From contig SUWC01000010.1 in the NCBI GenBank assembly GCA_015061665.1, forward strand, positions 1 through 58,284: DNA of 58,284 nucleotides, in the 5' to 3' direction. This document shows positions 1,398-6,538 of this stretch, piece after piece. Position numbers and translations under genes: made by a program. Source of the DNA: Lentisphaerota bacterium. GTDB taxonomy: Bacteria; Verrucomicrobiota; Kiritimatiellia; RFP12; UBA1067. How positions within the stretch are numbered: the first letter of the stretch is position 1; each line of letters starts with the position of its first letter. The notes beneath the pieces are model-generated. The model worked only from the letters and a program-made list of their open reading frames with translations. It ran no database searches and was not told the origin of the DNA.

Positions 1398-1823
1398 ATG
1401 GCAGAAGAGCATAAGACCGGCATAAGCGAAGAAGAGGCCGCAGAGGAGGCGAAGAAGTACTCGCGCAAGGTGAGCGAGGACGATGTCGCCGACATGGTCG
1501 GCAAGGAAGACAAGATGAAGGGTTTCTTCAAGAACGTCGAGGTCCTGAAGCAATACTGGGATGACGTATGTGACATCTTCGAACTGCTCAGGAATCGTGT
1601 CACTGGCAGGTATACCGAAACCCCGTGGAGCACGATTGCCGCGCTGACAGGAGCGCTGCTGTATGTGCTGACTCCCCTTGACGTGATACCGGATTTCATT
1701 CCGATTGCAGGATTTATCGATGACGCTGCCGTTATTGCGGTAGTGCTGAAGCTTTCCGGAGGGGATCTCGCCCGCTATCGCGCATGGCGCAAGGAACAGG
1801 AGAACACGACCGACGTAGGGTGA
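1398..1823 (+). CDS. YkvA/DUF1232 family membrane protein
   Basis: Motif 'PWSTIAALTGALLYVLTPLDVIPDFIPIAGFIDDAAVIAVVLK'; ATG at 1398 preceded by GCGAGGA. Confidence 0.8.
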   Translation: MAEEHKTGISEEEAAEEAKKYSRKVSEDDVADMVGKEDKMKGFFKNVEVLKQYWDDVCDIFELLRNRVTGRYTETPWSTIAALTGALLYVLTPLDVIPDFIPIAGFIDDAAVIAVVLKLSGGDLARYRAWRKEQENTTDVG

Positions 1824-2221: not shown

Positions 2222-2485
2222 ATGACAGATACATCAAAAGATGCAGTTGCTGACATGATTGCAACAACTGTCAAGAAATTCATAGACAAGCCTGACAGCA
2301 TGTGTGATGAAGACTGGGCTACGCAGGAGCTTGGCGATAATGACGAGGCAAAAGCGGATGCCAGGGACATTTGTGCTGCCATTAAGGATTACGCACAGAT
2401 GAAGTCTGACTACAAGGCGGCGAGAGCAAAGGGTAAAAGCAGCGCGGCGTTTATTGCGCATAAGAAAGCGGAGGTGGCACAATGA
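2222..2485 (+). CDS. Hypothetical small helical protein, first gene of AAA+ operon
   Basis: 87-aa ORF with AAAGGAAAAGGAAC upstream; its TGA overlaps the next ATG (ATGA). Confidence 0.6.
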   Translation: MTDTSKDAVADMIATTVKKFIDKPDSMCDEDWATQELGDNDEAKADARDICAAIKDYAQMKSDYKAARAKGKSSAAFIAHKKAEVAQ

Positions 2486-3105
2486 CTATCCAGGAAGCAA
2501 CGAAGGCTGTCCAGGAAAGAGGCTTGGACGAAACAGTTAAGTTTGCAGAGAGTGTTCATGAGGGGGCGGTGGAGGCTGAATCCAATGGTCTCCACTTTGA
2601 TAAAGAACTTTCGGCTTATGTAGATAGGCAACTTGACGAACAAGTCGGTGATGAAAAAGGTCTTGCTGTTCCAATCGCGGTTGGAGCAGTAAAGGCCGCG
2701 CGAGCGGGGTGCTTTGGCAAGGAAGCGAAGTCCGTTTCTGCATACGAAGTGGCGGTCAAGGCCTGTGAATATGTGGATAGGCTCAAGACACTCAAGCGAC
2801 TCGGGGAAAATAAGATAACGGAAGAGGAAGCTGCAGAAGAGGCGTCGGAATCGGCATGTGTGGCGGTATGTACCATGCTTGGCAAACACACTGGAGGTGC
2901 AATTGGTTCTCTGTTCGGAGAAAAAGGAGAGAAACTTGGCGAGGAGATTGGGAAGAAAGTTGGCAAATTCGTTGGCTGCGCTGTTGGCAAAGTCGTCCGC
3001 AATGTCATTGTTGAAGGCTCCAAGGCAATTGCCAACTATGTTAAGAACACTGTAGTAGGTTTGGTTCAAGCCGCAGGAAGAGTGTTTGCAAGTATTTTCG
3101 GATGA
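2482..3105 (+). CDS. Hypothetical protein with glycine-zipper C-terminus
   Basis: 207-aa ORF; 'GGAIGSLFGEKGEKLGEEIGKKVGKFVGCAVGKVV' GxxxG periodicity; overlaps upstream stop by 4 nt. Confidence 0.65.
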   Translation: MTIQEATKAVQERGLDETVKFAESVHEGAVEAESNGLHFDKELSAYVDRQLDEQVGDEKGLAVPIAVGAVKAARAGCFGKEAKSVSAYEVAVKACEYVDRLKTLKRLGENKITEEEAAEEASESACVAVCTMLGKHTGGAIGSLFGEKGEKLGEEIGKKVGKFVGCAVGKVVRNVIVEGSKAIANYVKNTVVGLVQAAGRVFASIFG

Positions 3106-3133
3106 TTGACGACAATATCTTAAAGGTGACGAT

Positions 3134-4144
3134 ATGGAACTTAAACGCATGAGATTTAATCTCCGTTTCCCCGATCCAAGGGGAGGCGACAATTTTGTCA
3201 CTGTTCATTCCGTCAAAGAACTTCGGGATTGTCTTATGGACCGCAAGATCGCATTTGATGATTTGATAGGCTATTTCAGGAATGGCACGTTGCATCGGTG
3301 GTTGGAATGTCAGGATGAGGTGGAAGCGAATCGGGCCGAAAAAATGAAAAAGCTCTTTGAGGACGGCCACGGGAAGGCCGTGGCGGATATTGCCACACCG
3401 CTCCTTGATGCATTTGACATGGAGATTGACAATGATGTGGTGGATGCCTTTGTTCGTGATTGCGTTATAAGTCCAGAAAAAATGCTGCAGGATAAGATGT
3501 GTGCGCGTAAGTGGATTGACGCATATAAAATTAAAGCCTCTGGATTGGTTGATGAATTCAAAAAGGACAAGTCGAGGCTGCTTGAAATGAGAGAAAACCT
3601 GAAGGCTCTTCGAAAGTACGTAGCGCAAATGCTTCAATTATATGGTGGTCTATCAAGGCTTGACGAGTTTCATTTTATTGGATTCTTGAAAAAGAAATGT
3701 CCATTGGGGGCACTAGCGTTGCTGACATTGCCGGAAGGGCAGAAATACAAGGATGATTTACCTGACATATTCAAGGGATTTGTTGTTCTTAAATCTCAAA
3801 ACTGTGAGCCGACGTTATTGCTTAATTGGTACACTGATTTAGAGAAAGAACATCCTTATCTAGTATCTGGTGACAATGCCCCCATTAAAGTTTACAGAAA
3901 AGAGACGAAGCGCAGGTCTTGGGAGTCGATTGTGCAAGCCGGAACGAAAGTTCTTCTGCTTTGGGATGTTAACTATGTTGTTAGTGACTTTGGTGCTGAT
4001 AAAGAGAAAGATCAATTCGAGGGCGATAAGTTGAACGGCAACTATCATGTTTTCAATGGGTTGGATGTCAGGTCGAAAGACAAAATATCTGCTTTTTCGG
4101 AGCTATTTCTTGCCTACATAGAGGTGCCGAACGATGGCGAATAG
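3134..4144 (+). CDS. Hypothetical protein with N-terminal 'YFRNGTLHRWLE' type small domain
   Basis: 336-aa ORF; 'IAFDDLIGYFRNGTLHRWLECQ' motif; 3' end overlaps the ATPase start. Confidence 0.6.
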   Translation: MELKRMRFNLRFPDPRGGDNFVTVHSVKELRDCLMDRKIAFDDLIGYFRNGTLHRWLECQDEVEANRAEKMKKLFEDGHGKAVADIATPLLDAFDMEIDNDVVDAFVRDCVISPEKMLQDKMCARKWIDAYKIKASGLVDEFKKDKSRLLEMRENLKALRKYVAQMLQLYGGLSRLDEFHFIGFLKKKCPLGALALLTLPEGQKYKDDLPDIFKGFVVLKSQNCEPTLLLNWYTDLEKEHPYLVSGDNAPIKVYRKETKRRSWESIVQAGTKVLLLWDVNYVVSDFGADKEKDQFEGDKLNGNYHVFNGLDVRSKDKISAFSELFLAYIEVPNDGE

Positions 4145-5696
4145 AAAATCACAGGAGTTGCGGGACTTGCTCGACTCGTTTCGCCCAGTTCTTTATATCA
4201 ATGACTTTGACTTCCATGCCGTTGATGCGCTTATTCGTGAGGCGGTCAACGACGAGAATTGCGTTGTCGAGTACAATAACGGCAAGGGCGCGGTGCATTT
4301 TAAGACAAAAATGCCACGCCATGAACGTGTACCTGAACAGCCTTGTTCGGCAAGGTTGGCTAAATTTCTTGATGAGTATATAAGCGACCTGCCGAAGCGA
4401 AAAGTTCTTGTCCTGAAAGATGTCCATGGCGAAATCGGATTGCCGGAAATCGTCGCGCGGTTAAAGCTCATTGCAGAGAGGACCATGCATGCACCAGACT
4501 ACTGGGTCCCTGTCATCATTGTGTCCACTGTATTGACGATTCCGCCGGAGTTGGACAAACTAATCACAGTCTTTGACATGGAATATCCGTCGCGTGAGAA
4601 GATAGAGGACACAATAAAAGATTATGCGAATAGCTATAAATTCCTGATTGATGAGAGGACTCTCAAAGAACTTTCTCTTGCGTTCAACGGATTGAGCGAC
4701 TTTGAAATTTGCCAGATACTGAATTTGGCCTATCAAAATGGCGGCTCTGTAACGAAAGAAGACATACCTCTCATTCTTAAAGAAAAAGAGCAAGCAATCC
4801 GAAAGGGAGGACTCCTTGAGGCAGTTGTCACGGAACTCAAGGTGGAGTCTATCGGCGGACTCAAGATGCTGAAGGAGTATTTGAACAGAAAGGCAATCAT
4901 CTTCAAGAATCTTGCATCGGCCTTGGAGGCTGGTGTGGACATGCCCAAGGGCGTCCTCATAGTGGGGTTGCCGGGGTGCGGGAAGAGTCTTGCCGCAAAG
5001 GTGTCCGCAAAAATGTTCAATGTGCCTCTTTTCCGTTTGGATATTGGACGCTTGATGGGGAAGTATGTCGGCGAGAGCGAGGAGAATCTTCGACGGGCCA
5101 TCCGCCAGGCCGAGGCGGCGGCACCATGCGTATTGTGGATAGACGAGATTGAAAAGGCGTTCGCAGGTCTGGGAAGGTCAGGGGGCGATGGCGGCATTAC
5201 GACGCGTCTTTTTGGTCATTTTCTTACATGGTTGCAGGAGAAGAGTTCAACCGTCTATGTTGTTGCGACGGCAAATGACATAACGGGTCTGCCTCCGGAA
5301 TTTCTGCGCAAGGGACGGTTTGACGAAATCTTCTCGGTAAAGCTCCCGTCGGATGTAGAGAGACGCCAAATTTTCGAAATACAACTCAAGAAGCGCAAGC
5401 AGAATCCCAAAAAGCAAGGGCTTGACATCGATGAGCTTGTTCACAAGACGGCAGGTGAAAAGGGCATCGCCGAGTATTCTGGGGCGGATATAGAATCAAT
5501 TGTCAAGATGGCTGTAGAGAGCGCATTTATTCGGGGAGATCGAGAAGGCAAGGAATGTCAATCGAAAGTCACGCAGCAAGACCTCTTGGATGCCATTGAG
5601 GAAACTACGCCGATTCGTCGGACGATGAAGGAGAAGATTGAGCTTCAGGAAAAGAGCATCGGAAGATTTCAGATTGTCGACGCTTCAAAAGCATGA
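4134..5696 (+). CDS. AAA+ family ATPase, Ycf46-like
   Basis: Walker A 'VGLPGCGKSLAAK', Walker B 'CVLWIDEIEKAF', 'LFRLDIGRLMGKYVGESEENLRRAIRQAEAAAPC', 'LRKGRFDEIFSVKLP'. Confidence 0.85.
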   Translation: MANRKSQELRDLLDSFRPVLYINDFDFHAVDALIREAVNDENCVVEYNNGKGAVHFKTKMPRHERVPEQPCSARLAKFLDEYISDLPKRKVLVLKDVHGEIGLPEIVARLKLIAERTMHAPDYWVPVIIVSTVLTIPPELDKLITVFDMEYPSREKIEDTIKDYANSYKFLIDERTLKELSLAFNGLSDFEICQILNLAYQNGGSVTKEDIPLILKEKEQAIRKGGLLEAVVTELKVESIGGLKMLKEYLNRKAIIFKNLASALEAGVDMPKGVLIVGLPGCGKSLAAKVSAKMFNVPLFRLDIGRLMGKYVGESEENLRRAIRQAEAAAPCVLWIDEIEKAFAGLGRSGGDGGITTRLFGHFLTWLQEKSSTVYVVATANDITGLPPEFLRKGRFDEIFSVKLPSDVERRQIFEIQLKKRKQNPKKQGLDIDELVHKTAGEKGIAEYSGADIESIVKMAVESAFIRGDREGKECQSKVTQQDLLDAIEETTPIRRTMKEKIELQEKSIGRFQIVDASKA

Positions 5697-5884: not shown

Positions 5885-6337
5885 GTGAATAAGAAGTATT
5901 TCGTTCCGGTTGTGCTGATGCTCACGGCGGTTGCGGGGCTCGCGGCGATGGGGCTTGTGTTCTGCTGGTGCTGCCCAGATAGACTGCATGATGTCGGCGG
6001 CGTTGCCTCGCGCTGGTGGTTCAAACGTCAGGTTGTATGGAACATTGCTGGCGTTTGTGCAGCGTTGCTGGCTGTGGCTGCGGGATGGAAACGATTGCTG
6101 AAGGCGGCGCCGTTCCTATTCTCTGGATGGGTAGCGCTCTGGATTATTGCGTGCTCGCAGCCTGCGGTCGAGGGGTCGTGCGCCTTTGTGCGTATCGGAC
6201 CGATCGCGCTTAGTGTCTGGTCTCTATTCCCTGTCGCGCTTGCCCTGCTCGCGGCATGGCTTCGCAAGCGATATCTTGTCGGCGCGAAGGATTTCCTGTG
6301 CGGTGTCTGCGCAGGCACCATTCTGGTTTGTAATTGA
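5885..6337 (+). CDS. Hypothetical multi-pass membrane protein (GTG start)
   Basis: Hydrophobic 150-aa ORF; AAAAGGAAAT upstream; promoter at 5838. Confidence 0.6.
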   Translation: MNKKYFVPVVLMLTAVAGLAAMGLVFCWCCPDRLHDVGGVASRWWFKRQVVWNIAGVCAALLAVAAGWKRLLKAAPFLFSGWVALWIIACSQPAVEGSCAFVRIGPIALSVWSLFPVALALLAAWLRKRYLVGAKDFLCGVCAGTILVCN

Positions 6338-6360
6338 ACTCCGAGCGTTTGGGCTCTCGC

Positions 6361-6372
6361 GGGGGGGGGGGG
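6361..6372. repeat. Homopolymeric G12 tract
   Basis: Read directly from sequence: gggggggggggg. Confidence 0.9.
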
Positions 6373-6538
6373 CGCAAAGGTTCGGCAGCCCAAAGTAAAA
6401 TTGTGGAACCTCCAAATTGTTGGGGGCTTGCCTTTTGCTGCTTCGGTTTGGTATAATCCTTGACGTAAAGGCGGTTCATGCGGGGCAGAGATCCTTACAT
6501 GATGCCGCTGATCAACAACATCAAAGAGGAACCATAAC

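Follow-up and report, generated by a model that had tools for sequence, protein, structure and literature searches.

Gene content, composition and borders of the cassette

Genes A–D (Table 1) constitute a tightly packed unit in the window, that is the entire 58-kb contig (58,284 nt), and the ATGA overlap between A and B, the 28-nt gap in front of C and the 11-nt overlap between C and D are all as given in a preliminary description of this DNA. The cassette lies 2.2 kb from the start of the contig, and the sequence further to the left is outside our data. It is AT-rich, as had also been remarked, the GC content being 0.472 in the cassette and 0.593 in the contig; in a scan of the contig every other non-overlapping stretch of 3475 bp was more than 0.02 away from the value of the cassette. 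The GC3 of A, B, C and D is 0.50, 0.44, 0.46 and 0.55 respectively, against a background of 0.787 (sd 0.075, 35 genes beyond 9 kb), low GC3 not being exclusive to A–D as one of the 35 other genes is also low (minimum 0.46). The flanking genes at 1861–2112 and 5885–6337 have GC3 values of 0.774 and 0.636, both nearer to the background, indicating that the AT-rich island coincides with A–D. As judged from the sequence, A–D are most likely a horizontally acquired cassette of foreign composition, and we read the acquisition as recent.

Table 1. Genes of the cassette and its neighbours in the window.
Feature	Position	Strand	Product
YkvA/DUF1232 gene	1398..1823	+	Upstream gene; Pfam DUF1232, E 1.1e-12
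Gene A	2222..2485	+	87 aa; separate copy of the B' N-terminal helical domain
Gene B	2482..3105	+	207 aa; B' C-terminal part, bearing the glycine zipper
Gene C	3134..4144	+	336 aa; adaptor/sensor candidate
Gene D	4134..5696	+	520 aa; AAA+ ATPase
FtsW/SEDS-like ORF, truncated	5885..6337	+	Membrane protein; 150 aa versus 339–341 aa in relatives

The cassette is taken as 2222–5696, based on the YkvA gene on the left and the truncated FtsW-like ORF on the right. A YkvA gene is located upstream of the locus also in L035/L094 and may be an associate of the cassette, but it is not supported as a core component, since a 97% identical gene is found in genome G008 beside other genes and without the cassette, and the DNA match of this region to G008 ends at position 1840 of the window. 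In related genomes the YkvA/DUF1232 genes adjoin varied genes possibly involved in stress or conflict, namely a macro-domain gene (L147:2622–3086, by eye), an AAA ATPase (L150), a GTPase-like gene (L154, by eye) and a second YkvA (L156).

The FtsW-like ORF is probably a remnant, as tblastn with its relatives stops near residue 146 of about 340. An FtsW/SEDS-like gene follows D in L036, but it is not regarded as a core component either, being truncated in the window and present without D in genome G004. The ORF is cut short at a dispersed repeat (6317–6416) into which the reading frame runs. The repeat has two ends of about 50 bp, 93–97% identical at about a dozen places in the genome and present also in G006 and G008; the ends are 130–270 bp apart in two other copies inspected and are joined by a G-run in the copy at 6317–6416. 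An empty site for the right flank was not found, because the relatives searched do not share the gene order. A trio consisting of an NtrC/PspF-like activator (by eye), a protein of 92–96 aa and an FtsW/SEDS-like protein is recurrent, and is located behind D at L057:9617–12079 and without D at L148:8423–10781.

The ATPase and gene order among its relatives

The inferred protein of gene D contains an active AAA domain at about residues 272–403 (Pfam AAA, E 1.5e-28), the sole Pfam domain above cut-off among the four products, in line with the preliminary description, which recognized a clear fold in this gene only. Walker A (GLPGCGKS, residues 278–285), Walker B (WIDEIEKAF, with the core at residues 333–338), an aromatic pore loop (KYVGESE, residues 310–316) and an R-x-G-R motif are conserved, and the N-terminal part is without a Walker A motif. 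Among solved structures p97/Cdc48 is closest (E 1e-51), residues 199–497 matching the D2 side, and this relation together with the conserved catalytic motifs and the pore-loop aromatic indicates that D is likely an ATPase that threads its substrate. PADLOC gives D general AAA matches only, and none to A, B or C.

D had been described as Ycf46-like, but this assignment was not upheld. The Ycf46-type AAA proteins, with DUF1257 and DUF2997 partners, have the same general AAA architecture and are 34–42% identical to D in the loci retrieved, but they belong to a separate clade (100/100) and have other neighbours, and the closest solved structures of D are those of p97. In a maximum-likelihood tree of 79 D-type ATPases, the D of the window is found in a clade of 26 members (support 100/100) that holds every D with a B and/or C gene as neighbour, and the remaining 53, including the Ycf46-type proteins, constitute the sister clade. 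B and/or C is located beside D in 24 of the 26, and in the two others, L053 and L056, D is at or near the end of the contig; neither B nor C was found beside D in any of the 53 members of the sister clade, or in the 71 loci from viral contigs that contain D relatives. The genes thus travel together, and the neighbourhood search which the preliminary description had named as its own refutation did not refute it.

Relatives of the module are present in at least seven bacterial phyla, and D relatives at 42–49% identity were retrieved from many phyla. The gene order A-B-C-D, identical to that of the window, is found in L054 from Bacteroidaceae, and the order A-B-D-C in L035/L094 and in L064, L077 and L090 from Bacteroidota, with a cut locus in L061. 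In Bacillota and Anaerobiospirillum the order is C-D-B', where B' is a single protein of about 500 residues that adjoins D in many relatives, and in L048 this unit is found twice in tandem. These layouts come from gene calling and family HMMs; the HMMs were derived in part from the loci surveyed, and their E-values therefore indicate family membership only, and independent support for the gene unit comes from leave-one-out tests and from synteny kept at low sequence identity. D-clade relatives are present in three of 144 related genomes (G027, G109 and G128), in which C of the window gave no match, and L094 carries the same locus as G109, a genome of the same order as the window.

Most members found are located on chromosomal contigs, but plasmid-borne members occur in Exiguobacterium (beside McrBC), in Microcystis and in Enterobacterales (beside a CARF-PDDEXK nuclease and a kinase). 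A phage origin was considered and rejected, since no B' was found in viral contigs and the 71 viral-contig relatives of D are without B or C. The viral contigs (L205–L275, e.g. L230–L234) do have D-like AAA genes, and L230 resembles the Ycf46-type set in having a DUF2997-like neighbour (by eye).

The partner proteins A, B and C

A and B had been presented as two proteins, one small and helical and the other with a glycine zipper. The zipper is conserved, and the GxxxG-rich tail is present as described, but the two products correspond to the ends of the one protein B' that is usual in the relatives. An HMM for the N-terminal domain of B', trained without the window, recovers A (E 3.8e-10 in a set of ten window proteins), and B is recovered by a leave-one-out HMM of the zipper end (E 1e-14 for a nominal 50 sequences), indicating that A and B are the two ends of B' encoded as coupled genes. 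They match the B' ends only, and the middle domain is not present in the window. The same split is found in L034, L035/L094 and L054, with A equivalents of 119 aa in L054 and 141 aa in L035/L094, and separate A and B genes are also present in Bacteroidota (L061, L064, L077 and L090), where the B proteins have Lys-rich helices and no clear zipper.

The tail of B consists of the glycine zipper and a short aromatic or hydrophobic end. B shows no clear classical transmembrane helix, the highest mean hydropathy over 19 residues being 1.36. No family for A was found in Pfam, NCBIfam, PHROGs or PADLOC, and B gives only weak matches there, of the glycine-zipper type or of unknown function. Matches of the B profile to a tape-measure protein and to alpha-synuclein among solved structures were discounted, being weak and such as repetitive helices would give. 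In TelE, an unrelated T7SS effector, a glycine zipper is reported to be needed for toxicity (PMC10434224).

In the middle domain of B' the residues E158, D194, Q211 and K213 are invariant in all 14 homologues, including the one from Klebsiella, and proteins with the invariant E-D-QxK motif are encoded by L044–L052, L055, L036, L057 and L126. The predicted order of helix-strand-strand-strand-helix-strand fits PD-(D/E)XK, and the domain looks like an intact nuclease site of this type, as far as can be modelled. It has no significant Foldseek or Pfam match, and the AF2 model of the L044 protein (mean pLDDT 62) gave no significant Foldseek match. The PD-(D/E)XK fold of the zipper protein in CoCoNuTs was judged to be inactivated (PMC11090510), whereas the motif is invariant here.

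The inferred protein of gene C starts, as earlier observed, with a conserved 'LHRWL' domain, which in the relatives is joined to variable modules. It has an N-terminal domain at about residues 1–70, a helical middle and a beta-rich C-terminal part, and was recovered by leave-one-out HMMs with E 3.1e-12 over the full length and 4.5e-8 for the N-terminal domain (nominal 50 sequences). An N-terminal stretch of about 60 residues with a core motif like 'EDxLxYxxxGxLxRWL' is common to all C proteins found. In the window and in most Bacillota the remainder is of a separate type, helical and beta-rich; by Pfam it contains Sel1 repeats in L034, a WD40-like end in L051 and a CobW GTPase in L125, and by eye it is FGE-sulfatase-like in L064 and L077 and FISUMP-like in L090. 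In the genomes that hold the domain, 19 of 21 matches are located at the D locus by comparison of coordinates. A conserved domain that is joined to exchangeable partners and located beside a single type of ATPase would fit a docking domain carried by varied sensors, and the sequences suggest that C is a sensor or adaptor. No C was found in L036, L057 and L126, where genes for a kinase, a vWA protein and a PP2C (by eye in L036 and L057) adjoin B' and D instead.

C belongs to no family in Pfam, NCBIfam, PHROGs or PADLOC, and the profile of its domain gave nothing meaningful against solved structures. A cupin or jelly-roll identity is not claimed for C (AF2 model with mean pLDDT 67), the resemblance being weak and Foldseek giving no significant match. 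Two tandem C genes at L077:9701–12523 and three further genes in L196–L200 have FGE-sulfatase-like ends of which the last 130 nt or so are variable. Diversification by a DGR was considered for L077 from these DGR-like ends and rejected, as no template repeat and no reverse transcriptase match could be found in the genome.

Relation to known systems and possible function

The closest known arrangement is found in some Type III-A CoCoNuTs (Bell 2024, eLife 13:RP94800, PMC11090510), where a CDC48/p97-type ATPase and a glycine-zipper protein sit between vWA genes (section 10) and the ATPase homologues have Walker motifs only in the C-terminal domain. L126, from a plasmid of Enterobacterales, fits this description with a vWA gene, a zipper protein, an ATPase with a biotin-carrier-like end, a CARF nuclease, a PP2C and a kinase; its ATPase is located in the same 26-member clade as D of the window, and the N-terminal and zipper regions of the zipper partner are shared. 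The window likewise has a p97/CDC48-like ATPase whose Walker motifs are confined to the C-terminal part, and an adjacent zipper protein. However, the PD-(D/E)XK-type fold is absent from A and B, D is 520 aa long and does not have the extra C-terminal domains found in L126, no vWA, PP2C, kinase, CARF, McrBC-like or CnuB/CnuC genes were recognized by gene calls and Pfam near the cassette (on the left side within only 2.2 kb), and the window has protein C, which section 10 of PMC11090510 does not mention. As these defining features of the CoCoNuT extension are lacking the cassette is not filed as a CoCoNuT, although it may work alike.

Other named systems show partial similarity. Genes of the TerY-P triad (vWA, PP2C, kinase) are combined with B' and D in L036, L057 and L126, but are absent near the cassette of the window, which has C instead. 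D matches the IetA AAA models of IetAS (E 9.5e-25), but scores 79.9 bits with the NCBIfam IteA model against a cut-off of 510, and the operon is without a protease gene. To TRIP13 (Cap6) of CBASS there is a weak partial match (E 4e-8), but none of the neighbours matches a HORMA protein or a cyclase. The MoxR-vWA and FtsH ternary conflict systems (Kaur et al. 2020, PMC7159879) also have an ATPase whose N-terminal AAA copy is inactive, helical partners and modular sensors that include FGE-sulfatase-type domains, but the window has no MoxR and no vWA and its ATPase is p97-like. The proposal of an undescribed system holds only in part, the pair of ATPase and zipper protein being already known as an extension of CoCoNuTs (PMC11090510). 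No account of a stand-alone system, of the C family or of the split A/B form was found in the open-access literature searched.

The core should consist of D, a partner with a glycine-zipper or amphipathic region at its end (A and B, or B') and C, or in some relatives the kinase-vWA-PP2C triad in place of C. We propose, giving it not quite an even chance, that the cassette belongs to a widespread family of stand-alone modules, was acquired horizontally and has a membrane-active effector controlled by the ATPase, itself under an adaptor, most likely for conflict. D would bind B and by threading or remodelling keep it soluble or inactive, and the N-terminal domain of C might couple D to a signal read by the variable remainder of C. 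Upon the signal D would release B or insert it into the inner membrane, leading to growth arrest or membrane damage, and in the variants with the middle domain B' might also bind or cut nucleic acid. The conflict would probably be with phages or other mobile elements, a role favoured by the accessory distribution, the foreign composition, the carriage on plasmids and the restriction or CARF neighbours of some members, defence-gene neighbours being known from a few loci. That the module is in full a multi-phylum immune system of its own, with a p97-like unfoldase as switch, modular C receptors and a zipper effector that hits the membrane or in variants cuts nucleic acid, we regard as unlikely on present evidence.

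The main rival is a role in envelope or protein quality control. Like Msp1 or p97, D would then extract or remodel proteins associated with the membrane, B would be its membrane anchor or a receptor, C would be an adaptor for substrates, and the module would serve survival of stress and not killing. Envelope stress is favoured by certain neighbours, which are NtrC/PspF-like (by eye), FtsW-like or of the YkvA family: YkvA is found in the window and in L035/L094, an FtsW/SEDS-like gene follows D in L036 and is left as a remnant in the window, and an NtrC-like gene follows D in L057. The p97-like nature of D and the Lys-rich B helices of Bacteroidota without a clear zipper also fit, but a patchy accessory distribution, foreign composition, plasmid and restriction-system contexts, the nuclease-like domain in many B' proteins and the strong variation of C speak against this role, and we consider it rather unlikely.

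Plasmid occurrences, the tandem unit of L048 and the small coupled gene A would also suit an addiction module similar to toxin-antitoxin systems, in which B is a membrane toxin checked by A, C or D and the benefit is maintenance of the element. Such a module is very unlikely here, being large, ATP-consuming and of many components, with most members on chromosomal contigs and a diversity of C that suggests sensing instead. The loss of the nuclease-like middle domain from A and B, beside a truncated FtsW-like ORF, might indicate that the window holds a decaying, functionless remnant of a CoCoNuT-type accessory, but all four frames are open and overlapping with conserved motifs, the split A-B form recurs in L034, L035/L094 and L054, and L061, L064, L077 and L090 encode A and B separately, which makes degeneration the most improbable of these explanations.

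With an ATPase-controlled membrane effector as the preferred reading, its function can be tested, since the smallest versions, in the window or L054, consist of four short genes of about 3.5 kb that can be cloned whole. What was a side remark on CoCoNuTs becomes a system that can be defined by a separate ATPase clade, a receptor-like family without a Pfam match, effectors in two layouts and control modules of two alternative kinds. Should D control a membrane effector, it would parallel p97 in a bacterium, acting in immunity or stress responses.
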